From contig JAFSXS010000070.1 in the NCBI GenBank assembly GCA_017443945.1, positions 1-45,359 of the forward strand: a stretch of 45,359 nt of DNA, read 5' to 3'. A program made the position numbers and the translations under genes. Under the pieces are notes generated by a model, which saw only the letters and a program-made list of their open reading frames with translations, had not been told where the DNA came from and did not search any database. Each line of letters opens with the position of its first letter. The stretch's first letter is position 1. This DNA comes from Synergistaceae bacterium (GTDB lineage: Bacteria > Synergistota > Synergistia > Synergistales > Aminobacteriaceae). Shown here piece by piece: positions 12,375-45,359 of the stretch.

Positions 12375-13265
12375 ATGAAGGGCATAGTTTTAGCAGGAGG
12401 CAGCGGCACTCGTTTATATCCCCTTACGCTTGTAACGTCAAAGCAGTTATTACCGGTCTATGATAAGCCTATGATTTATTATCCCATTTCTATATTAATG
12501 CAGGCTCGAATACGCGAGATTTTGATTATTTCGACTCCTGATGATTTGCCGAGATTCGAAAAATTATTAGGCAGCGGCGAAAGATTCGGAGTGAAATTTT
12601 CTTATGCGGAACAGCCTTCACCAGACGGACTCGCGCAGGCATTTATTATCGGTAAAAAATTTATAGGTTCTGACACTGTAGCAATGATTCTCGGCGATAA
12701 CATTTTTTCAGGTCAGGGATTAGTTAAAAGACTCCGAGCAGCAGCAAAGAACGCCGAGTCAGGAAAAGGCGCAACAATTTTCGGATATTATGTCGATGAC
12801 CCTGAAAGATTCGGAATTGTAGAATTTGACTCAGACGGTCATGCAATATCAATCGAGGAGAAGCCCGAACACCCCAAGAGCAATTATTGTGTAACAGGTC
12901 TATATTTTTATGACAATCGCGTAATAGAATTTGCAGAAAATCTCAAGCCTTCAAAGAGGGGAGAACTCGAAATTACAGATCTTAACCGCATATATCTTGA
13001 ATTAAATCAATTAAATGTAGAGCTGCTCGGACAGGGATTCACGTGGCTTGATACCGGGACTCATGAGAGCCTAGCCGACGCAACAAATTTCGTGAAGACA
13101 GTCGAGACCCATCAGCACAGAAAAATTGCATGTCTTGAAGAAATTGCATATCTCAATAAATGGATTACACGCGATGATGTTATGAAAGTTTATGAGGTCT
13201 TACGCAAGAATCAATACGGGCAGTACTTGAAAGACGTTTTAGAGGGGAAATATATAGATGTCTAA
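12375..13265 (+). CDS. rmlA: Glucose-1-phosphate thymidylyltransferase
   Basis: Makes dTDP-glucose from glucose-1-phosphate and dTTP, step one of dTDP-L-rhamnose synthesis. 296 residues, typical. Nucleotide-binding signature '[16 protein letters not shown]' at residues 3-18, then '[15 protein letters not shown]', 'GDNIFSG' (metal Asp), 'EEKP' and '[10 protein letters not shown]' near the C terminus. AGGAGG precedes the ATG. First gene of the rmlA-rmlD-rmlC-rmlB run; it overlaps rmlD by eight bases. It starts 31 bases after tRNA-Leu with no terminator between, so it may be transcribed from the tRNA promoter. Confidence 0.96.
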
Positions 13266-14163
13266 AATTTTTATAACCGGTGCAAATGGGCAGTTAGGGC
13301 GAGACTTAATCACCGAGCTTACATCGCGAAATATTGAGTGCACAGCGTCTGATATTCAGGAAAATTTTTCGGGTTCTGAGTCATGCAGATATATAAAACT
13401 TGACATCACTAATTATGAATCAGTAGAAAACGTGATAAAACTTGAACGTCCTGATAGATTAATTCATTGTGCAGCATGGACAGCCGTAGACTTGGCCGAA
13501 GACGAGAGCAATAAACAAAAAGTTTTCGCCGTAAATGTTACAGGAACAGAAAATATCGCGCGTGCCTGTGAAAAATTTAACGTGATTATGACTTACATCA
13601 GCACAGATTATATTTTCAACGGTGAGGGCGCTAAACCTTGGCAGCCTGACGACGAAGCATTTAAACCGGTCAATTATTACGGATTCACTAAGTTACAGGG
13701 AGAATTTGCCGTGAAAAAATTTTTGCGTAAATTCTTTATTGTCCGGATTGCGTGGGCGTTCGGGCCGAGAGGAAATAATTTCGTCAAAACAATGCTGAAA
13801 CTTTCAGATAATCACGAGTCTTTGCGTGTCGTTAATGATCAAATAGGTACGCCTACATACACGCCTGATTTAGCAAAATTATTAGCTGACATGAACGAGT
13901 CTGACAAGTTCGGGATTTATCATGCAACTAATGACGAGCAGAAAAATTTTATCAGCTGGTATGACTTTGCGTGCGAGATTTTCAAGCAGTCAGGAAAAAA
14001 AATAAATGTTATTCCCGTTTCAACGCTCGAATATGGACTCTCGAAAGCAAAAAGGCCGTATAATTCAAGATTGGACAAGAGCAAATTATTAGAGTCAGGA
14101 TTTAATTTATTGCCGGATTGGCGAGACGCTTTAAGGAGGTATTTATCAGCAAATGCAAATTAA
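13258..14163 (+). CDS. rmlD: dTDP-4-dehydrorhamnose reductase
   Basis: Last step to dTDP-L-rhamnose: NAD(P)H reduction of dTDP-4-keto-rhamnose. 301 residues. Rossmann motif '[13 protein letters not shown]' (GxxGxxG) at the N terminus, '[12 protein letters not shown]' and the catalytic '[10 protein letters not shown]' (YxxxK). '[18 protein letters not shown]' and '[14 protein letters not shown]' are family blocks. The start lies within the end of rmlA, with AGAGGGG as ribosome binding site. It overlaps rmlC by 11 bases, so all four genes are tightly coupled. Confidence 0.96.
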
Positions 14164-14707
14164 CGTAGATTACAACGTCGGAGGAATCGAAGGACTTTGT
14201 GTTATTACTCCCAAGATTCACGGGGACTCACGCGGTTACTTCATGGAAAGCTATAATTTAAACGATATGAAAGAGGCCGGCTTCAATATAAATTTCGTGC
14301 AGGACAACCAAAGCAGCAGCACAAAAGGAGTCTTGCGGGGACTTCACTATCAAATAAATTTTCCGCAATGTAAATTAGTTAGAGTTATAAGCGGCTCAGT
14401 ATTTGATGTTGCTGTAGATCTGCGCAAAAATAGCAAGACTTTCGGCAAATATTACGGTCTCGAACTCTCAAGCACTAACTGCAAACAATTTTTAATCCCG
14501 CGCGGCTTTGCACACGGCTTTATAGTTTTGTCGGACACAGCAGAATTTTGCTATAAATGCGACGATTTCTATCACCCTAACGACGAGGGCGGAATAATTT
14601 ATAACGATCCTGATATAAATATTTTATGGCCAAACGTAAATGCGCCGATTCTATTATCAGACAAAGATAAAAATTTGCCGTCATTGAAGGAGGTTATGTC
14701 AGCATGA
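14153..14707 (+). CDS. rmlC: dTDP-4-dehydrorhamnose 3,5-epimerase
   Basis: Epimerises dTDP-4-keto-6-deoxyglucose at C3 and C5. 184 residues, cupin fold. Motifs: 'DSRGYFMESYN', 'NQSSSTKGVLRGLHYQ' (catalytic His), 'SGSVFDVAVDLRK', 'LIPRGFAHGF' and 'CYKCDDFYHP' (catalytic Tyr region). AAGGAGG precedes the start within rmlD. Its TGA overlaps the rmlB ATG (ATGA arrangement). Confidence 0.96.
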   Translation: MQINVDYNVGGIEGLCVITPKIHGDSRGYFMESYNLNDMKEAGFNINFVQDNQSSSTKGVLRGLHYQINFPQCKLVRVISGSVFDVAVDLRKNSKTFGKYYGLELSSTNCKQFLIPRGFAHGFIVLSDTAEFCYKCDDFYHPNDEGGIIYNDPDINILWPNVNAPILLSDKDKNLPSLKEVMSA

Positions 14708-15690
14708 AAATTTTAATCACGGGCGGAGCAGGTTTTATCGGGAGCAACTTTATATTTCACATGTTAGAATCTCACCCCGATTATGAAATTATCTGCGTTG
14801 ACAAATTGACTTATGCAGGAAATATTAACACTCTCAAAGATTTAATTGCTGAAGGGAGAATAAATTTTTTCAGGCTCGACATTTGCGACAGAGAGAGAAT
14901 CTATAATTTATTTGACTCGGAACGTCCTGACATAGTCGTAAATTTTGCGGCAGAGTCTCACGTTGATAGATCCATAGAGTCGCCCGGAATATTTTTATTT
15001 ACGAATACGCTAGGAACAGGGGTATTACTTGACGCGAGCTTAAAATTTGGTGTCAAACGTTTTCATCAGGTCAGCACCGACGAAGTTTACGGAGATTTAC
15101 CGCTTGATAGGCCAGATTTATTTTTCTCGGAAAGTTCGCAGATAAAAGCGTCATCGCCGTATTCAGCGTCGAAGGCAAGTGCTGATTTATTGACTCTCTC
15201 GTATCACAGGACATTTAATTTGCCGGTCAGTATTTCGAGATGTTCAAATAATTATGGGCCTTATCATTTCCCGGAAAAATTGATTCCCCTCATGATAATT
15301 AATGCGCTTCATGATAAAGATTTGCCGGTCTATGGTCAGGGAATAAATGTAAGGGACTGGCTGTTTGTGCGGGATCACTGCCGGGCGATTGATTTAATTA
15401 TTCACGATGAAGGCTCGAACGGTGAAATTTATAATATCGGCGGACATAATGAAATGCGTAATATCGACATAGTAAAATTAATCTGTCATGAGTTAAATAA
15501 ACCTGAGAGTCTCATAAAATTTGTTACTGACAGAAAAGGCCATGACCTTAGATATGCTATTAATCCCGAAAAAATTTATCTGCGCTTAGGGTGGCTGCCT
15601 GAAACGAAATTTGCAGACGGAATAAAGCTCACAATTAAATGGTATCTCGAAAATAAATCGTGGTGGGAGCCGTTAATAAATTCACGATAA
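14704..15690 (+). CDS. rmlB: dTDP-glucose 4,6-dehydratase
   Basis: NAD-dependent dehydration of dTDP-glucose to the 4-keto-6-deoxy sugar. 328 residues. 'MKILITGGAGFIGSNF' binds NAD; 'STDEVYGDL' holds the catalytic Thr-Asp-Glu and 'YSASKAS' the YxxxK pair; 'RCSNNYGPYHFPEKLIPLMI' and 'YGQGINVRDWLFVRDH' are dTDP-sugar binding blocks. AAGGAGG precedes ATG, which overlaps the rmlC stop. Last of the rhamnose operon; a hairpin follows. dTDP-rhamnose presumably supplies surface polysaccharide made by glycosyltransferases such as the one at 8103. Confidence 0.97.
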   Translation: MKILITGGAGFIGSNFIFHMLESHPDYEIICVDKLTYAGNINTLKDLIAEGRINFFRLDICDRERIYNLFDSERPDIVVNFAAESHVDRSIESPGIFLFTNTLGTGVLLDASLKFGVKRFHQVSTDEVYGDLPLDRPDLFFSESSQIKASSPYSASKASADLLTLSYHRTFNLPVSISRCSNNYGPYHFPEKLIPLMIINALHDKDLPVYGQGINVRDWLFVRDHCRAIDLIIHDEGSNGEIYNIGGHNEMRNIDIVKLICHELNKPESLIKFVTDRKGHDLRYAINPEKIYLRLGWLPETKFADGIKLTIKWYLENKSWWEPLINSR

Positions 15691-15872: not shown

Positions 15873-18800
15873 ATGACACTAGAAGAACAGCAGCAAGTAC
15901 AAAATTTAATCAACGCTAAAACACGTCTGCTAACTCAACAAATAAACAGTCAGCAGAATCATATTTATTCGCTCACTGAAGAAATTAGCGCGCGCAATGA
16001 CGAAATTAATTCACTCAACCGCAAAATAATCGCCCTTAATGATGAAATAATCGACAAACGCGAGGAAATAGAGTCCCTTAACAGCAAAATTGACTCTCTT
16101 CACGGAAAAATTAACGCGCTCAACACTGAAATTGACTCGAAAAAACGCGAAATCTCAAGCCTTCAGACGCAATTAAATGACTCTCACGCAGAAAATCAAA
16201 AATTGACGGCCTACATACAAAGCACCCCGCCGCCTGAAGAAATAAAATCTGAACCAGAAATTAAGCCCGAACCTGTGCAAGCAGTCAAGCCCGTAAATAA
16301 TTATCTCGTTTCGTTATTACGTCAGCATTTCGGATTTGACTCATTCAAGCCCGGTCAGGAAGAAATTATCAATGCGCTATTGTCCGGACGTGATGTATTT
16401 TGTTCTATGCCAGATAATTACGGAAAAAGTATTTGTTATAGACTACCTGCTTTGTTGATGCCCGGTTTGACTCTTGTTATTGCTGATGAGAACGAAAATT
16501 TTAATATTGACTCACACTCGGCGCGGCTTGATAACTCGTTGAACTCTACACAAAAGCGTGAATTACTGCGCAGAATTAAAAGCGGTGCCTGCAAGATTCT
16601 TTACTCGGATTTAGAGCAGCTCAACGGGATTATAAATTTCTTGAACGGCGTAGAAATTTCGTTAATTGCCGTAATAATGCGCGAAAATTTAATAGCTTAC
16701 AGGGAATTTGCCGACTCCCTGAACTCTAAGCGCATACCGATAGCAATTTTTACAGGAGTAACAAGCCCCGAACAACGCGCGGAAATCATGAAGGACTTAC
16801 GCTCGCCCATGAGAGTTATTACAGGTTTTGAGCTGCAAAATTATTCGTTCGCAATTATTAAATCAGAGAATAAAAACGCGTCAATAAATGAAATTCTCAC
16901 TCAGCACAAAGACTCTAACGGGATTATTTACACGTCAAAGCCGCAGGATTTTATCAAGTTTGCAGGAAGGAACGCACTAATTTTATCGCAGCTTTCACAG
17001 GAAGACGCAAGCAACGCAAATTTTATAGTTTACTCTGATTTTGCGGGCACTCTCGCAGAATTTTTCAAGTCCGCCATACCTGACAAAGATTTAATTATTC
17101 TGGTCTCGCAAAAAGATTTAAGGACTTCCGACGGCGCATTTATAATGTTCTGCAACTCCGACGACCCAATAAAAATTTTAGCAGGCTATATCGGCACGGA
17201 AGAGTCTCAAGTCAAACCCGATGAAGAAATTTCGCAGCCAATTGAATTAACTCCGGAAGATTTTGCAGACTTTGATTTTACTTCAGCAAACGAGTCCCAG
17301 AAAGAAGCAATCACTACTACAAACGGGCCATTATTGATTCTTGCAGGGCCGGGAACGGGAAAAACTTTCACATTAATTCAGCGCACAATATTTTTGATTC
17401 AGAAAAAACGACTCAAGCCCGAAAATATTTTAATCGCAACTTTCACGAACAGGGCAGCACATGAAATTTTGTCGAGAATGTCAGAAGAATTTAAAGCGCG
17501 CAATATTCAAGCAGACATCAACGAGCTTTATATCGGGACATTTCACTCACTTTGCGAAAAAATTTTACGGGGTTATGTTCAGTTTACGCGATTCAAGAAA
17601 AATTTTAGGATTCTTGACGACTTCGAACACAAATATTTATTAATGCGCAAAATTGAGAGATTCAACGATATTACAGCATTGACGAGTCCGGGCAAATGGG
17701 ACAGAGCCGAAGAATTATGCAATTACATCAATAAACTTTCTGAAGAGCTTGCAGACTCTCAAGAATTAATACGCGACTCAGATCCGTTAATTTCTTCACT
17801 TGGCCGTGCTATGCTGCTTCATGATGATTTATTGATTGACGATAACTCGTTGAGTTTTTCTGCTTTGCTGGTCGAGACTTATAAATTACTGCGCGACAAT
17901 CCCGAAATTTTAGAGAGCCTTCAATCACGCATAAAATATCTAATGGCCGACGAATATCAAGACACAAATTATATTCAGGAGCAAATTTTATTCTTGATAG
18001 CAGGTGAGAGCAAAAATATTTGTGTGGCCGGCGACGATGACCAGAGCTTATATAGATTTAGGGGTGCTGCTGTGAGAAATATTTTAGAGTTCCCTGAAAA
18101 ATTCGCGCGCAATGAGTGCAAAATCGTGAAATTATTGCTGAATTACAGATCTGACGCAAATATTATGAAGTTCTTTACTAGCTGGATAAATGACACGGGC
18201 AAATTCTTTAACTGGGAAAATTTTAGATATGATAAAAATCTTGAAGCCTTCAGGAATGAGTCAAAATCTGTGTTCAGGCTCGCTGGAGTGAATGACTCGG
18301 CGGAATGGCACGAAAAAATTTTAGCTCTCTTGAAGTCTCTTACTGACTCCGGCAAATTAAGCGATTACAATCAAGTTGCATTTCTCTTCAGGTCGGTGCG
18401 TGCTGCTCATGTGCAGGAGTTAGCGCAATTTTTAGAGAATCATAATATAAAAGTTTACTCGCCCCGTTCTGATATGTTCTTCAAGCGCGGGGAAATTCAT
18501 TTTGCGTTAGGCTGCTTTATATCGATGTTCCCGAAATATTTAAAGTCTCTTGAGTCAGGCGAATTTAAATTTAACGGCCATGAACCCGAAAATATTATTT
18601 ATTACAGAAATTGTCTGCGAACCGTCGCACGCTTTATCGACAAGCCCGGATATTTGCAGCTGAAAAAATGGCTCATGAAGAAACGCGATTTTCACGCAAA
18701 ATTAAACGGTTATGCAAATTATTCGTATTCGGATTTATTATATAATTTATTTGCGTTTATGCCGTTCAATAAAGCCCTTGACGCAGAAATCAACAGCGAC

Positions 18801-20168
18801 GTAAAAACTTTAAGGCCTGCACGTAATTTATCGCGTTTAATGCAGGTGATAAAAGATTTTGAGCACATCTCGAACATAAATAATATTCACTCGAAATATA
18901 TAGAATCTCAGACTATAAGACTATTCAATATTTATTTGCGTTTTTTGCTTGAGGGCGGCTTGAATGAGTACGAGTCAGAAGATCCCGCAGCACCTTCCGG
19001 CCACGTAGCTTTTATGACAATTCATCAGGCAAAGGGGCGTGAATTTCCTGTAGTGCTTGTTGACTCATTAAGCAATACTCCGAACATAGTATTTAATGAC
19101 GGGACTAATTCCGAAATTATGAATGCTGTAGAGTCAAAATATTTCAAGCGTCCGCCGTTCGAGCCTGAAGACATGATAAATTATTTCGATTTCTGGAGGT
19201 TGTATTACGTTGCATTTTCGCGGGCAAAAGATTTGTTAATTCTCACTTGCAGGGAGGACAGCACAACGCCGTCAAAATATTTCGAGGACTCTTATAATTC
19301 GCTTGATGATGCGGACGAGTCATTTAATCCGGAAAATATAAATATCAGCGAGTCAAATAATTCGAGTCTCAAGCAAATTTACTCGTTCACGTCTGATATT
19401 TTGCTTTATGAGTCATGCCCGGTGAAGTATAAATTTTATCGCGAGCTTGAATTTTCGCCGGTCAAGTCAAAGACTCAGTTAATCGGCATTCTTGTGCATT
19501 CAGTTATAGATGACATCAACAAAGCAGTAATCAACGGTCAGGAAAATTTAATCAACGAGCAGATAATTTCTAACTGGCTTGAATCTGATTATACGGAACT
19601 CGCAAAAACTGAACGGGCAGCACTCACAAAGGCAGATAGAGAAATAGCACTCGGACACGTCATAAGATATGTAATTTTGCGCGGTAATGACTGGTCGGGC
19701 ATAAAAGAATCTGAGTCCGAGCTTAAATTAATTCGTGATGATTATATAATTACTGGAAGGGCTGATTTAATTTGCTCTGATAACGGCCAAATCGATATAA
19801 TAGAGTTCAAGACAGGGACAAAGCCGAATATCAATATTAATCATGACCGCGCGAGACTTGAGACTCACAAGAGGCAGTTAAATATTTATGCGTACATTTT
19901 TTCGCAGACTACCGGACAAAAAGTTAATAGACTCAGATTATATTACATGTTTGACGGCAGTACATCGCCCGAAATTGTTTATGATTATAACGAGTCAGAA
20001 GCTCAAGAATTTATTAACGGTTTTGACGAAATAGTACAGGAGATTCGCAATAAAGATTTTTCCCGCAGAACTGATAATCACGAAACTTGCAGAGAATGCG
20101 AATTTAGATTTTACTGCGGGCGTGAGGAATCTATAGAAAATATCTTAGCGCAGGCCATGAAAGAATAA
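15873..20168 (+). CDS. Coiled-coil / RecQ-like / UvrD helicase / Fe-S PD-(D/E)XK nuclease fusion
   Basis: 1431 residues. Residues 1-120 are a heptad-rich coiled coil. Then comes a RecQ-like ATPase half: 'FGFDSFKPGQEEII' (RecQ Q-motif), a Walker A remnant ending GKSICYRLPAL (G184, K185, S186), but MREN where DEAH/DEVH should be, so it is probably inactive. A complete UvrD/Rep superfamily 1 helicase follows: GPGTGKT (G492-T498), DEYQDT (from D693), GDDDQSLYRFRG, TIHQAKG (from about 1049), YVAFSRAKDLL. The C terminus is a nuclease: H1209, D1298 (GRADL), E1311 and K1313 (EFK), with C1182, C1406, C1409 and C1415 in the C...CxxCx5C pattern of AddB/Cas4-type [4Fe-4S] nucleases. It probably processes DNA ends in recombination repair, as a one-chain analogue of AddAB, or possibly defends against foreign DNA. 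It stands alone, with GGGAG before ATG. Confidence 0.85.
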   Translation: MTLEEQQQVQNLINAKTRLLTQQINSQQNHIYSLTEEISARNDEINSLNRKIIALNDEIIDKREEIESLNSKIDSLHGKINALNTEIDSKKREISSLQTQLNDSHAENQKLTAYIQSTPPPEEIKSEPEIKPEPVQAVKPVNNYLVSLLRQHFGFDSFKPGQEEIINALLSGRDVFCSMPDNYGKSICYRLPALLMPGLTLVIADENENFNIDSHSARLDNSLNSTQKRELLRRIKSGACKILYSDLEQLNGIINFLNGVEISLIAVIMRENLIAYREFADSLNSKRIPIAIFTGVTSPEQRAEIMKDLRSPMRVITGFELQNYSFAIIKSENKNASINEILTQHKDSNGIIYTSKPQDFIKFAGRNALILSQLSQEDASNANFIVYSDFAGTLAEFFKSAIPDKDLIILVSQKDLRTSDGAFIMFCNSDDPIKILAGYIGTEESQVKPDEEISQPIELTPEDFADFDFTSANESQKEAITTTNGPLLILAGPGTGKTFTLIQRTIFLIQKKRLKPENILIATFTNRAAHEILSRMSEEFKARNIQADINELYIGTFHSLCEKILRGYVQFTRFKKNFRILDDFEHKYLLMRKIERFNDITALTSPGKWDRAEELCNYINKLSEELADSQELIRDSDPLISSLGRAMLLHDDLLIDDNSLSFSALLVETYKLLRDNPEILESLQSRIKYLMADEYQDTNYIQEQILFLIAGESKNICVAGDDDQSLYRFRGAAVRNILEFPEKFARNECKIVKLLLNYRSDANIMKFFTSWINDTGKFFNWENFRYDKNLEAFRNESKSVFRLAGVNDSAEWHEKILALLKSLTDSGKLSDYNQVAFLFRSVRAAHVQELAQFLENHNIKVYSPRSDMFFKRGEIHFALGCFISMFPKYLKSLESGEFKFNGHEPENIIYYRNCLRTVARFIDKPGYLQLKKWLMKKRDFHAKLNGYANYSYSDLLYNLFAFMPFNKALDAEINSDVKTLRPARNLSRLMQVIKDFEHISNINNIHSKYIESQTIRLFNIYLRFLLEGGLNEYESEDPAAPSGHVAFMTIHQAKGREFPVVLVDSLSNTPNIVFNDGTNSEIMNAVESKYFKRPPFEPEDMINYFDFWRLYYVAFSRAKDLLILTCREDSTTPSKYFEDSYNSLDDADESFNPENINISESNNSSLKQIYSFTSDILLYESCPVKYKFYRELEFSPVKSKTQLIGILVHSVIDDINKAVINGQENLINEQIISNWLESDYTELAKTERAALTKADREIALGHVIRYVILRGNDWSGIKESESELKLIRDDYIITGRADLICSDNGQIDIIEFKTGTKPNININHDRARLETHKRQLNIYAYIFSQTTGQKVNRLRLYYMFDGSTSPEIVYDYNESEAQEFINGFDEIVQEIRNKDFSRRTDNHETCRECEFRFYCGREESIENILAQAMKE

Positions 20169-41903: not shown

Positions 41904-44810
41904 TTATTTATCTTCATGAATGAGCCTCAATAAATCGCTGTATTGTGTTACTTCATGATAAATAACGCCCTGACTTGACAAACTATCAAATAATTTCTTC
42001 GCGCACTCTATTTTTGCAGACTCTATCGGCTTTAACTGCAGGCTCGATAAATCCCCCTTTGTCTCGGCAATAAAATAAATTTCCCGCTTCTCTCCTTCAT
42101 TAAAGACTATCGCCCAATCTGGTGAATAATTTCCCATAGGAGTCGGAATCTTAAATCCTCTCGGTAACTTCGCATAAACGCTGACTTCTTCTGACACGTC
42201 TAAATCTTTCGTCATGTCCTGTTCAACTTTGCTGTCAGGAAAAATAAACGTCTGAACATTTTTACGCGTTCTACATGCGCGCGGTGATTCAGAAAATTTC
42301 TGCTCCGTGAAAATCGCAATGTCATGAATATTATCTGTCCTGCTGTAAGTTACCTGCTCGATAATTATTGCTGCCCTCTGTTCGTTGATGAGAGTTATAA
42401 TTTTCTTGATGAACTCTTCAGGATTTTGCGTGAACATAGAAAATTTTTCACGTTCAATGCCTGATAAAATCTTTGCTGCTGTCCTGCGAGTTAAATTCGT
42501 GCCTCTTGCTATATCGCCGAGAAAATCATATTTTACGCTGCTATGTCTTGAAATATTCATTTGTTCCGTGTGAGTCTTGGCCGTGTCAAATTCCGTTAAA
42601 TCTCCCTGCGTTCCTGTCGTTATCGTGATAGTTACTTGACTCACTGATAAATTTTTATTGATTGAAGCTATAGATTTCGTGATTAATTCTTCGCTGTCAA
42701 ATTCTGCCCGATAAACGTATTTGTGATTTATGAGACTCCATAGGCGCTGAAATTCTTCACGGTAAAAATTTTTATTTAACGGGTTGCCTTCAACTTTTGC
42801 TGCTCTGCCGTCCTGAATCATTGAATTTACGTCAAATATCGCCTGAATCACTGTATGAACGCCGTCATTTATTCCATCAGGTAAGGGCGCAAAATTATTT
42901 TTCTCGCGGTCATCATGATATTTTTGCGTGATATTGTCGTCCAAATCTATATAATCATTCTTGAGCAAATAATTATGAATCTTTCTTGCTTGATGTTCGC
43001 TTATAATAAATTCTTGGCCGTCATAAATAAATTTTTTACCCTTGAAATATTCTATGTCCGCTTTCACTGGCCTGTTATACAAATCTTCTATTATGCCCTT
43101 CTGAAGTCCTGACACAAAATCTTTATAACCTTCTGAAGCTATAACAGTTAATTTGTTCAGGTCATAATCTGACTCGCGCGAACCGTCCTGATTAACACAC
43201 AAACGCAAGCCACGCCCTACTTCCTGACGCTTTGCAATGTATGACTCTCCACCGTGCTTTAACGTGCATATCTGAAATATATTCGGATTGTCCCAGCCCT
43301 CACGCAATGCAGAATGTGAAAATATAAACCTCACCGGCTCAGTTAGACTCAATAAACGCTCCTTATCGCGCAAAATTAAATCATAGTCTGATACATTGCT
43401 GCTCTCGTCCTGAATCTTTCGGCCCTTCTTGTCAATTGCAAAATATCCCGCGTGAGTCCTCTTTGCGTCAATGCCCTGCAAATATTTGCTGTAAAGTGTG
43501 CCGTCATTTATGTATTCTTTCACGAGCAAATTATATTCTGATTCAAAAATTTCGGCGTACTCCGCGTTTTCTCCGCGATATTTAGCTACTTCATCAATAA
43601 AGAATAACGACAGGCATTTAATACCGCGCTCAAATAAAATTTTTTCCTTCTCTAAATGCGCCCTTATTGTCTCGCGGATTTGAAGTCTTCGCAAATAACT
43701 TTCTGAAATATCCCCAATCGCCTCACCGACATGAATTATTTTCCCGTTCGTGAATGTCATAATATTTTGAGTCGGGTCAATATCGCTGACTCGAAAGCCG
43801 CTGTACTGATTCATTTCTCCCGACAACGCAAATAAATCATCTCCAGCTGAAATTATGCGCGTGATTCTTTTGCCGTTCTTCTCAAATTCAAGTCTCGCCT
43901 TAGGTGCACTGCTCGGAGAAATTATTATATCGCTCAGGTACATATAATTATAACTTCCGGGCAGATTCTTCACGTCAAAGCATGTAACTTCTATTTTCTT
44001 GACTAATTTTTGCTTATATGCCTCGTAAGCGTCCAACACGTAAATTAAATTATGGTGCTGCTTGTGAGTCGCTGAATAGTTCAGGCAGAATAACGGATTA
44101 AATTTTTTTATGCCGGCAAGAGTCTTAGCTCCTCCCATTTTTTGAGGTTCATCAAGAATTATTACCGGCCTGTTTTCGGCGATTACGTCAATTGGTCTGC
44201 GGCTCCCGAAGTCGTCCCGTTCTGAATTTATTATACGCGCTGATTTAGTATTTTTTCCGGCCTCGCTGGCGTTGAATGCCTGAATATTTATTATCATCAC
44301 GTTGATTCTTGAGTCGCTGCTGAACTCGTCTATCTCGTGCAAATTATCAGAATCATATACGAACGTCCGCGCCTTTTTCCCGTAAATTTCCATGAAGTGA
44401 GACTCCGTTATCTCAAAACTTTTGCGCACTCCTTCACGTATTGCAATGCTGGGAACTATCACGATAAATTTGCTCCAGCCGTAAATTTTATTCAGCTCAA
44501 AAATTGTCTTGATGTACGTATAAGTCTTGCCCGTCCCTGTCTCCATTTCTATATCAAGCACGCACGCGCCGAAATCCTTATTTAGCGAGTCAGAGAGCTT
44601 TATATTATTCTGAGTCTGAATGCGCCTTATGTTGTGCAGTAATTGACTGTCTGACAAAAAAATTTTCCCGTTCGCATAACCGGTGTAAAAAATGTCTCCT
44701 ACTGCCTGACCAGTTATATTAGCAGCGTTATAGCCCTGGCCGGCAAAAATTTCTGTTACGCTCTCTACTGCCCTCGTTTGGAAATCTTGAAGCGCAAATT
44801 TCAGACGCAA
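41904..44810 (-). CDS. res: Type III restriction enzyme, Res subunit
   Basis: 968 residues. Superfamily 2 translocase: 'DIEMETGTGKTYTYIKTIFEL' (Walker A), 'VIILDEPQKMGG' (DEPQ box), 'LNYSATHKQHHNLIYVLDAYEAYKQ', 'FIFSHSALREGWDNPNIFQICTLK' and 'RQEVGRGLRL' (motif VI). The C-terminal nuclease is PD-(D/E)XK: 'YSPDWAIVF' and 'FIAETKG'. It cuts DNA with head-to-head unmodified sites, working with Mod. The start is TTG (44810-44808), directly after the mod TAA; AGGAGGGTG inside the last mod codons is an ideal ribosome binding site, and the N terminus MRLKFALQDFQ is family-like. All active-site motifs look intact. Confidence 0.93.
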   Translation of the reverse strand: MRLKFALQDFQTRAVESVTEIFAGQGYNAANITGQAVGDIFYTGYANGKIFLSDSQLLHNIRRIQTQNNIKLSDSLNKDFGACVLDIEMETGTGKTYTYIKTIFELNKIYGWSKFIVIVPSIAIREGVRKSFEITESHFMEIYGKKARTFVYDSDNLHEIDEFSSDSRINVMIINIQAFNASEAGKNTKSARIINSERDDFGSRRPIDVIAENRPVIILDEPQKMGGAKTLAGIKKFNPLFCLNYSATHKQHHNLIYVLDAYEAYKQKLVKKIEVTCFDVKNLPGSYNYMYLSDIIISPSSAPKARLEFEKNGKRITRIISAGDDLFALSGEMNQYSGFRVSDIDPTQNIMTFTNGKIIHVGEAIGDISESYLRRLQIRETIRAHLEKEKILFERGIKCLSLFFIDEVAKYRGENAEYAEIFESEYNLLVKEYINDGTLYSKYLQGIDAKRTHAGYFAIDKKGRKIQDESSNVSDYDLILRDKERLLSLTEPVRFIFSHSALREGWDNPNIFQICTLKHGGESYIAKRQEVGRGLRLCVNQDGSRESDYDLNKLTVIASEGYKDFVSGLQKGIIEDLYNRPVKADIEYFKGKKFIYDGQEFIISEHQARKIHNYLLKNDYIDLDDNITQKYHDDREKNNFAPLPDGINDGVHTVIQAIFDVNSMIQDGRAAKVEGNPLNKNFYREEFQRLWSLINHKYVYRAEFDSEELITKSIASINKNLSVSQVTITITTGTQGDLTEFDTAKTHTEQMNISRHSSVKYDFLGDIARGTNLTRRTAAKILSGIEREKFSMFTQNPEEFIKKIITLINEQRAAIIIEQVTYSRTDNIHDIAIFTEQKFSESPRACRTRKNVQTFIFPDSKVEQDMTKDLDVSEEVSVYAKLPRGFKIPTPMGNYSPDWAIVFNEGEKREIYFIAETKGDLSSLQLKPIESAKIECAKKLFDSLSSQGVIYHEVTQYSDLLRLIHEDK

Positions 44811-45359
44811 TTAAATCACCCTCCTTATAGTATCATGGCTGTACGTGTTAAATATCTGATCGAAATTTGTCATGAGTGAGTCGCTGATTATTCCATTATC
44901 GCGAAAAATTGCGTAAATGGGCTTGAGCTTGGCTATCTCGGTTATAACGTCTTCATTGAGATTTTCATCAAAGCAGGCGGTTATGTAAACGGGCGAGTCA
45001 TCATGTTCAACGAGATAAATTTTTTTCCCGAACACAAATTTTTTCGTGATAGCTGCTGAAAGAGGCACACCTAATCGCAGCATTGAATTAATTAACAAAT
45101 CATCGGGCGTTCGGTCGGGCTTTATATTGTCTGCTAAGAGTTCTAGAGTCTCCTGCTTGAATTGATCGGGGTATAAATAAACGTCTTTAATGTTGCTTGA
45201 GTCGACTTTGAAAGCTCGGAAGCCTGTATCAAGTTCTGAAGTTGTCAGCGGGAAATCATCACGAATTTTGCGGGCTGCACGTTTGATTCGTTCTTGGCCG
45301 ATGTCGCATATAGTTTTGTAACCGGCTTTGAATGCTTCGGAATTTTCCGGAGTTGATTC
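44811..45359 (-). CDS. mod: Type III DNA methyltransferase (Mod), C-terminal part, cut by window edge
   Basis: 183 codons are visible and the frame is open through the window end, so the gene begins outside. The visible part starts 'ESTPENSEAFKAGYKTICDIGQERIKRAARKI', continues with 'SNIKDVYLYPDQFKQETLELLADNIKPDRTPDDLLINSMLRLGVPL', and ends 'EIAKLKPIYAIFRDNGIISDSLMTNFDQIF'. These match the C-terminal region of type III Mod proteins. Catalytic DPPY and FxGxG motifs and the target-recognition domain, which would tell the DNA site, lie outside the window. It is followed at once by res, so the system is mod-res in one operon. Confidence 0.9.
   Translation of the reverse strand, partial: ESTPENSEAFKAGYKTICDIGQERIKRAARKIRDDFPLTTSELDTGFRAFKVDSSNIKDVYLYPDQFKQETLELLADNIKPDRTPDDLLINSMLRLGVPLSAAITKKFVFGKKIYLVEHDDSPVYITACFDENLNEDVITEIAKLKPIYAIFRDNGIISDSLMTNFDQIFNTYSHDTIRRVI

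Follow-up and report, generated by a model that had tools for sequence, protein, structure and literature searches.

The window analyzed here is the 45,359-nucleotide (nt) contig JAFSXS010000070.1 of a Synergistaceae bacterium (assembly GCA_017443945.1). Its forward strand carries a single open reading frame (ORF) of 1431 amino acids (aa) for a fused helicase-nuclease, in which a coiled coil at the N terminus is followed by a RecQ-like half, then by a UvrD helicase and finally by a Cas4/AddB-type iron-sulfur (Fe-S) PD-(D/E)XK nuclease. This one-chain, four-part architecture had been proposed in a sequence-only reading of the DNA, and is borne out by database models. In Pfam, the protein matched UvrD-helicase (residues 473-744, E 5.5e-70), UvrD_C (residues 978-1126), PDDEXK_1 (PF12705, residues 1176-1415, E 7e-22) and a DEAD fragment (residues 160-194). 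In NCBIfam, residues 147-356 matched the RecQ model TIGR01389 (1.9e-29). The gene has the following features:

15873..20168, + strand: fused helicase-nuclease gene (ATG start, 1431 aa, single ORF)
15873..15953, + strand: conserved N-terminal peptide M-T-x-E-E-x-x-Q-V-Q ... L-L, residues 1-27 (alignment)
15873..16217, + strand: N-terminal coiled coil, residues 1-115 (coiled-coil family matches, hydrophobic periodicity, alignment)
16302..17207, + strand: degenerate RecQ core (RecA1, RecA2 and zinc-domain stub), residues 144-445 (TIGR01389 1.9e-29, AlphaFold model, motif alignment)
16407..16430, + strand: remnant RecQ Walker A MPDNYGKS, residues 179-186 (motif counts)
16671..16676, + strand: DEAHC deletion site (Walker B of the RecQ half), around residues 267-268 (alignment)
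17271..19322, + strand: UvrD/PcrA-type superfamily 1A (SF1A) helicase, residues 467-1150 (Pfam, AlphaFold model)
17346..17366, + strand: UvrD Walker A GPGTGKT, residues 492-498 (invariant in 19 of 19 aligned relatives)
19386..20126, + strand: putative iron-staple RecB/Cas4-type PD-(D/E)XK nuclease, residues 1172-1418 (PF12705 7e-22, cas4 TIGR00372 5.7e-12)

We searched 61 relatives for this gene, and then 188 genomes of the phylum Synergistota. The fusion is genuine, and neither a random ORF nor an assembly artifact, because the fused gene was found in 30 of the 43 genomes of the genus of the window, in many of them as one unbroken frame (some copies are cut by contig ends).

Hydrophobic residues in the first ~115 aa recur with a periodicity of 3.5 residues (permutation p = 0.04 for the maximum). 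The length of the coiled coil differs among species, and the copy in the window is longer by about 35-49 residues. Among 19 aligned sequences, M1, T2, E4, E5, Q8, V9, Q10, L19, L20 and Q27 are invariant, and the peptide of residues 1-27 is a possible docking or oligomerization signature.

UvrD motor and nuclease

The UvrD-nuclease half begins at residue 467, the same point at which the unfused relatives start. The two halves of the chain were modeled separately with AlphaFold. For the UvrD half (predicted local distance difference test score, pLDDT, 85), the top structural matches were UvrD/PcrA (Z 34-35, about 455-466 residues, root-mean-square deviation, rmsd, 2.5-2.8), followed by AdnB, AddA and RecB.

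The sequence-only reading had described the UvrD core and the nuclease as intact. This holds for the copy in the window and, with few exceptions, for its relatives, and the residue numbers given at the time (H1209, D1298, E1311 and K1313; C1182, C1406, C1409 and C1415) were all right by alignment and counts. The motifs of the motor show little or no variation. In the nuclease, H1209, D1298, E/D1311-x-K1313, Q1335 and Y1339 are conserved in nearly all relatives; the cysteines of the C1182...CxxCx5C pattern are invariant in the alignment and kept in nearly all relatives. Two relatives deviate: L032 has K1313R, and the active site of L033 is damaged. Four cysteines spanning the domain, together with the H, D, E/D-x-K and QxxxY motifs, point to an iron-staple nuclease, and the cysteine pattern agrees with the one described for this class (PMC7430649).

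The fused protein at L033 (1062-4814, + strand, genome G009) has lost the nuclease histidine and the Asp/Glu-x-Lys motif. In the AddA tree, G009 is sister to a clade of fusion-less genomes, and L033 may therefore show the gene decaying ahead of its loss.

A RecQ core without catalytic motifs

Aligned with intact Synergistota RecQs, the RecQ-like part (about residues 144-445) spans RecA1, a shortened RecA2 (most of the second RecA domain) and a stub of the zinc-binding domain. It stops before the winged helix, and both the winged-helix and the HRDC domains are missing. Motif 0 is retained, F158 and Q162 being present in all 27 relatives. Of these, 18 keep the Walker A lysine, and the other nine have M, R, L or S. 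DEAH and motif VI (GRAGR/GRAGRDG, with its arginines) are absent from all 27; motif Ia is lost, motif III is lost (TAT mostly), and motif V has been removed by a deletion. The zinc cysteines are present in only one of the 27, L032, the deepest-branching member.

The RecQ half had been read as carrying MREN in place of DEAH. DEAH is indeed gone, and the Walker B is lost in every one of the homologs compared, but the alignment indicates a deletion of about five residues (DEAHC) and no replacement: all ten fused sequences aligned with intact RecQs have a five-residue gap at this place. The suggested loss of the ATPase motifs is thus confirmed, and the RecQ half looks dead as an ATPase in all 27 relatives.

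Despite these losses, the RecQ half is predicted to have the fold of a RecQ catalytic core. Its AlphaFold model (pLDDT 81, predicted template modeling score 0.70) was compared with the Protein Data Bank (PDB), where RecQ cores lead the matches, with Deinococcus RecQ (4q48_A) at Z 26.3 over 309 residues (rmsd 6.8) and human RECQL5 (8rl6) at Z 25.6 over 304 residues (rmsd 3.7).

The ratio of nonsynonymous to synonymous substitution rates (dN/dS) is mostly 0.12-0.21 in the RecQ half (range 0.08-0.29), compared with 0.05-0.13 in the UvrD part; values for the more divergent pairs are rough, as their dS is high. It is well under 1 in every pair with usable dS, even though most pairs show faster evolution of the RecQ half than of the UvrD half, and invariant residues of the RecQ half are conserved over 25-27 species. 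Judged by these ratios, the RecQ half is under purifying selection. As the catalytic motifs are lost but dN/dS is low, it appears dead as an ATPase and yet selected. The earlier idea of a non-catalytic platform gains support from the predicted fold and from the low dN/dS.

No donor lineage for the RecQ half emerged from a tree. In some members of the genus there are RecQ-like proteins of about 660-680 aa (L128, 5572-7548, - strand; L129, 6893-8920, + strand) that are only weakly related to the RecQ half; each gene adjoins an ORF of 300-350 aa, and an RTGW Walker A start was seen in L128. In G030, two contigs (C2:5263-6384 and C10:62490-63611) hold, with identical scores, a RecQ-like frame of 1137 aa that contains an in-frame TAG.

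Origin, inheritance and gene neighborhood

By sequence, the C-terminal 965 aa belong to the UvrD-Cas4 helicase-nuclease family, as they combine a UvrD-like SF1 helicase with a PF12705 nuclease. Hudaiberdiev et al. (2017) described this UvrD-Cas4-like (pfam12705) family beside type III Mod/Res or Dcm/Vsr genes and predicted a defense role for it; stand-alone genes were reported as well, so that the restriction context is common but not universal (PMC5704561). The fused gene lacks this context in the neighborhoods read, which is no obstacle to family membership. The main text of PMC5704561 does not mention RecQ or a coiled coil, and the architecture was undescribed in our literature searches, which covered few subscription papers.

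Identity to the unfused relatives is 37-48% over about 955 aa. Most of these head, as first gene, a restriction-type cassette of helicase-nuclease, N4/N6 methyltransferase and ResIII/TnsA-type protein, which is found on plasmids, phages and chromosomes. The methyltransferase and the ResIII/TnsA-type gene follow directly or nearly so on Enterococcus, Vibrio, Nitrosomonas, Phaeobacter and Priestia plasmids, and the same order was found in most viral contigs, in G135 (another family) and in G097 (same genus), the unfused proteins of the latter two having 954-973 aa. The cassette genes are separated by one or two small ORFs on a Spirosoma plasmid and in an Acutalibacteraceae phage. Among the loci read, the partners were missing at L077 and on the cyanobacterial plasmid L144. 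In a maximum-likelihood tree, all 20 fused rows formed one clade (100/100), which grouped with four cassette members (100/99); the outgroups of this tree sit on long branches. We conclude from these sequence comparisons that one fusion event in a Synergistales genus placed the coiled coil and the RecQ core before the UvrD-nuclease.

No fused form was found outside the genus of the window among the Synergistota genomes searched, nor on plasmids, phages or viral contigs (tblastn and pattern search). A single scan of contigs with two family-specific peptide patterns returned only metagenome-assembled genomes of Synergistales/Synergistaceae and one Ruminococcus RecQ; whole-genome searches covered Synergistota, and fused forms may exist in other phyla. 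The carriers were uncultured Synergistales/Synergistaceae, some labeled Fretibacterium, almost all with ruminant-derived isolate names. Within the phylum, fused proteins thus appear to be confined to one rumen-associated Synergistales genus. One genome of the set, G018, has an unfused truncated remnant.

Pairwise distances of the fused protein and of AddA are correlated (r = 0.82, Mantel p = 0.0005, 21 genomes), and in the AddA tree the fusion-less genomes form one clade of seven plus G024. These data indicate that the fused gene is inherited vertically. It occupies a shared chromosomal place in many species, and its base composition is the same as that of its surroundings. Because of this AddA-like divergence, shared locus and native base composition, the gene does not behave as a mobile defense cassette, which would be patchy, horizontally moving and located in defense islands.

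In the window, the fused gene directly follows genes for dTDP-rhamnose synthesis:

12375..15690, + strand: rfbA-rfbD-rfbC-rfbB (dTDP-rhamnose) genes

The same genes lie upstream in the same order at eight other loci (L124, L125, L126, L130, L132, L042, L043 and L045), and a small lipoprotein gene is often found beyond the fused gene at loci of this type. We do not think that the rfb neighbors are part of its function. Other fused loci adjoin recD2, his or other genes. In G095, the closest sister species, recD2 follows the fused gene on the same strand after a gap of 49 nt (L123, 6331-8511 and 8560-12864, - strand), and the two are possibly on one transcript.

No methyltransferase or Res gene directly adjoins the fused gene in the neighborhoods read; one L041 neighborhood has a DNA-methylase-like gene 2 kb upstream on the opposite strand. 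A shared locus without such partners again argues against a mobile cassette. The window also contains a type III restriction Res subunit (41904-45359, - strand, 968 aa, ResIII and RE_endonuc), preceded by a 182-aa ORF that is cut by the window end and is possibly a Mod C-terminus, although it has no Pfam hit. At a distance of 21 kb from the fused gene, this type III locus is apparently a system of its own.

Proposed role and relation to known enzymes

Our best reading is that a defense-derived helicase-nuclease was fused once to a RecQ turned non-catalytic platform, and would now serve these gut and rumen bacteria as a vertically inherited accessory enzyme of DNA processing, apparently in a housekeeping role. 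In particular, we lean mildly towards a single-chain, ATP-driven helicase-nuclease working on chromosomal DNA alongside AddAB. UvrD-family motors are expected to move 3'-5' on single-stranded DNA with a nuclease behind them. In the fused protein, the motor would translocate in this direction and pass the unwound strand to the Fe-S nuclease, while the coiled coil may dimerize the protein or dock it on a partner. Processing of ends or forks, partly redundant with AddAB, would be the likely duty.

The dead RecQ core could be a DNA-binding clamp or a substrate reader. We propose this by analogy with the dead SF1 cores of AddB and RecC, for which Chi binding is an established mechanism (PMC4824097). 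A bolder version, rather improbable in our view, is that the RecQ core reads a sequence or structure and switches the UvrD-nuclease motor. The protein would then be a single-chain analog, evolved independently, of the Chi-reading cores of AddB and RecC, but based on a superfamily 2 (SF2) RecQ and drawn from a restriction cassette.

Some observations weigh against an accessory role in DNA processing. Neither the fused nor a full unfused gene was found in 12 genomes of the genus, which, with the damaged nuclease site of G009, suggests that the gene is dispensable and its duty not essential. The rfb neighborhood, though frequent, is uninformative on DNA repair, and vertical inheritance is also compatible with defense. 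The protein might then be a stand-alone anti-phage or anti-plasmid nuclease that kept its ancestral job, the dead RecQ half sensing invading DNA. Such a role would fit the restriction-type cassettes that hold the unfused relatives on plasmids, on a phage and on chromosomes, the published defense prediction for the family (PMC5704561) and the matches of the PADLOC GajB and DRT helicase models to the UvrD part, though these reflect general UvrD similarity. It is opposed by the lack of adjoining restriction partners (the L041 methylase-like gene excepted), by the shared chromosomal place and the divergence in step with AddA, and by the absence of the fused form from the mobile elements searched. 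We regard it as unlikely, if worth serious consideration. The sequence-only reading, which had offered a defense nuclease as one option, was thus right about the lineage of the UvrD-nuclease part; the fused gene itself is a stable chromosomal one without cassette partners.

The other option offered, a single-polypeptide replacement for AddAB/RecBCD, fails on the genome search. One chain does hold every activity domain needed, dead helicase half included, but the genome of the window encodes an AddA-like protein of 1153 aa, whose best NCBIfam model is addA_Gpos (283 bits, below the curated cut-off) and whose nearest PDB entry is AddA, as well as an AddB-like protein of 968 aa (weak addB_Gpos match, no Walker A, iron-staple cysteines). 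Of the 43 genomes of the genus, 41 were found to have AddA, whether or not they carry the fusion, and most have PDDEXK_1 frames of both AddA and AddB sizes irrespective of it. Since both subunit-like proteins are present, we rejected replacement, to which we give hardly any credence. It is also very unlikely that the RecQ half is merely a neutral passenger of the fusion. Lost ATPase motifs and faster evolution would agree with this, but the low dN/dS, the invariant residues and the predicted fold over 25-27 species would not, and loss of the leading coiled coil would be expected too.

With an accessory chromosomal enzyme as the preferred reading, about 30 species would record how a helicase-nuclease of a restriction cassette became a chromosomal enzyme passed on vertically, and how a RecQ helicase turned into a module that is conserved but non-catalytic. 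The best-known dead helicase cores are those that read Chi in AddB and RecC; a RecQ example, if true, would show that the same trick can arise from another helicase superfamily, and in one chain.

The UvrD-Cas4 helicase-nuclease family is known, and what is new is the variant with a dead RecQ module and a coiled coil. Like the family, it has a Cas4-type Fe-S nuclease behind an SF1A UvrD helicase, and it differs by the two parts in front and by having no restriction partner beside it. RecQ helicases have the same predicted fold as the RecQ half, which lacks their Walker B, motif VI arginines, motif V, winged helix and HRDC. Bad, a bacterial DNA2-like helicase-nuclease (PMC7430649), also fuses an Fe-S RecB-family nuclease to an SF1 helicase, but its nuclease is N-terminal, its motor is a 5'-3' SF1B type and it has no RecQ half. 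Mycobacterial AdnAB has a UvrD motor with a C-terminal nuclease as well (AdnB match Z 28, 603 residues, rmsd 3.5), yet consists of two subunits without a RecQ part. AddAB, made of the helicase-nuclease AddA and of AddB, a dead helicase with an Fe-S nuclease, resembles the fused protein in combining an active motor of UvrD type with a dead helicase core and an iron-staple nuclease; the fused protein unites these in one chain, with a dead core from RecQ (SF2) where that of AddAB is SF1.

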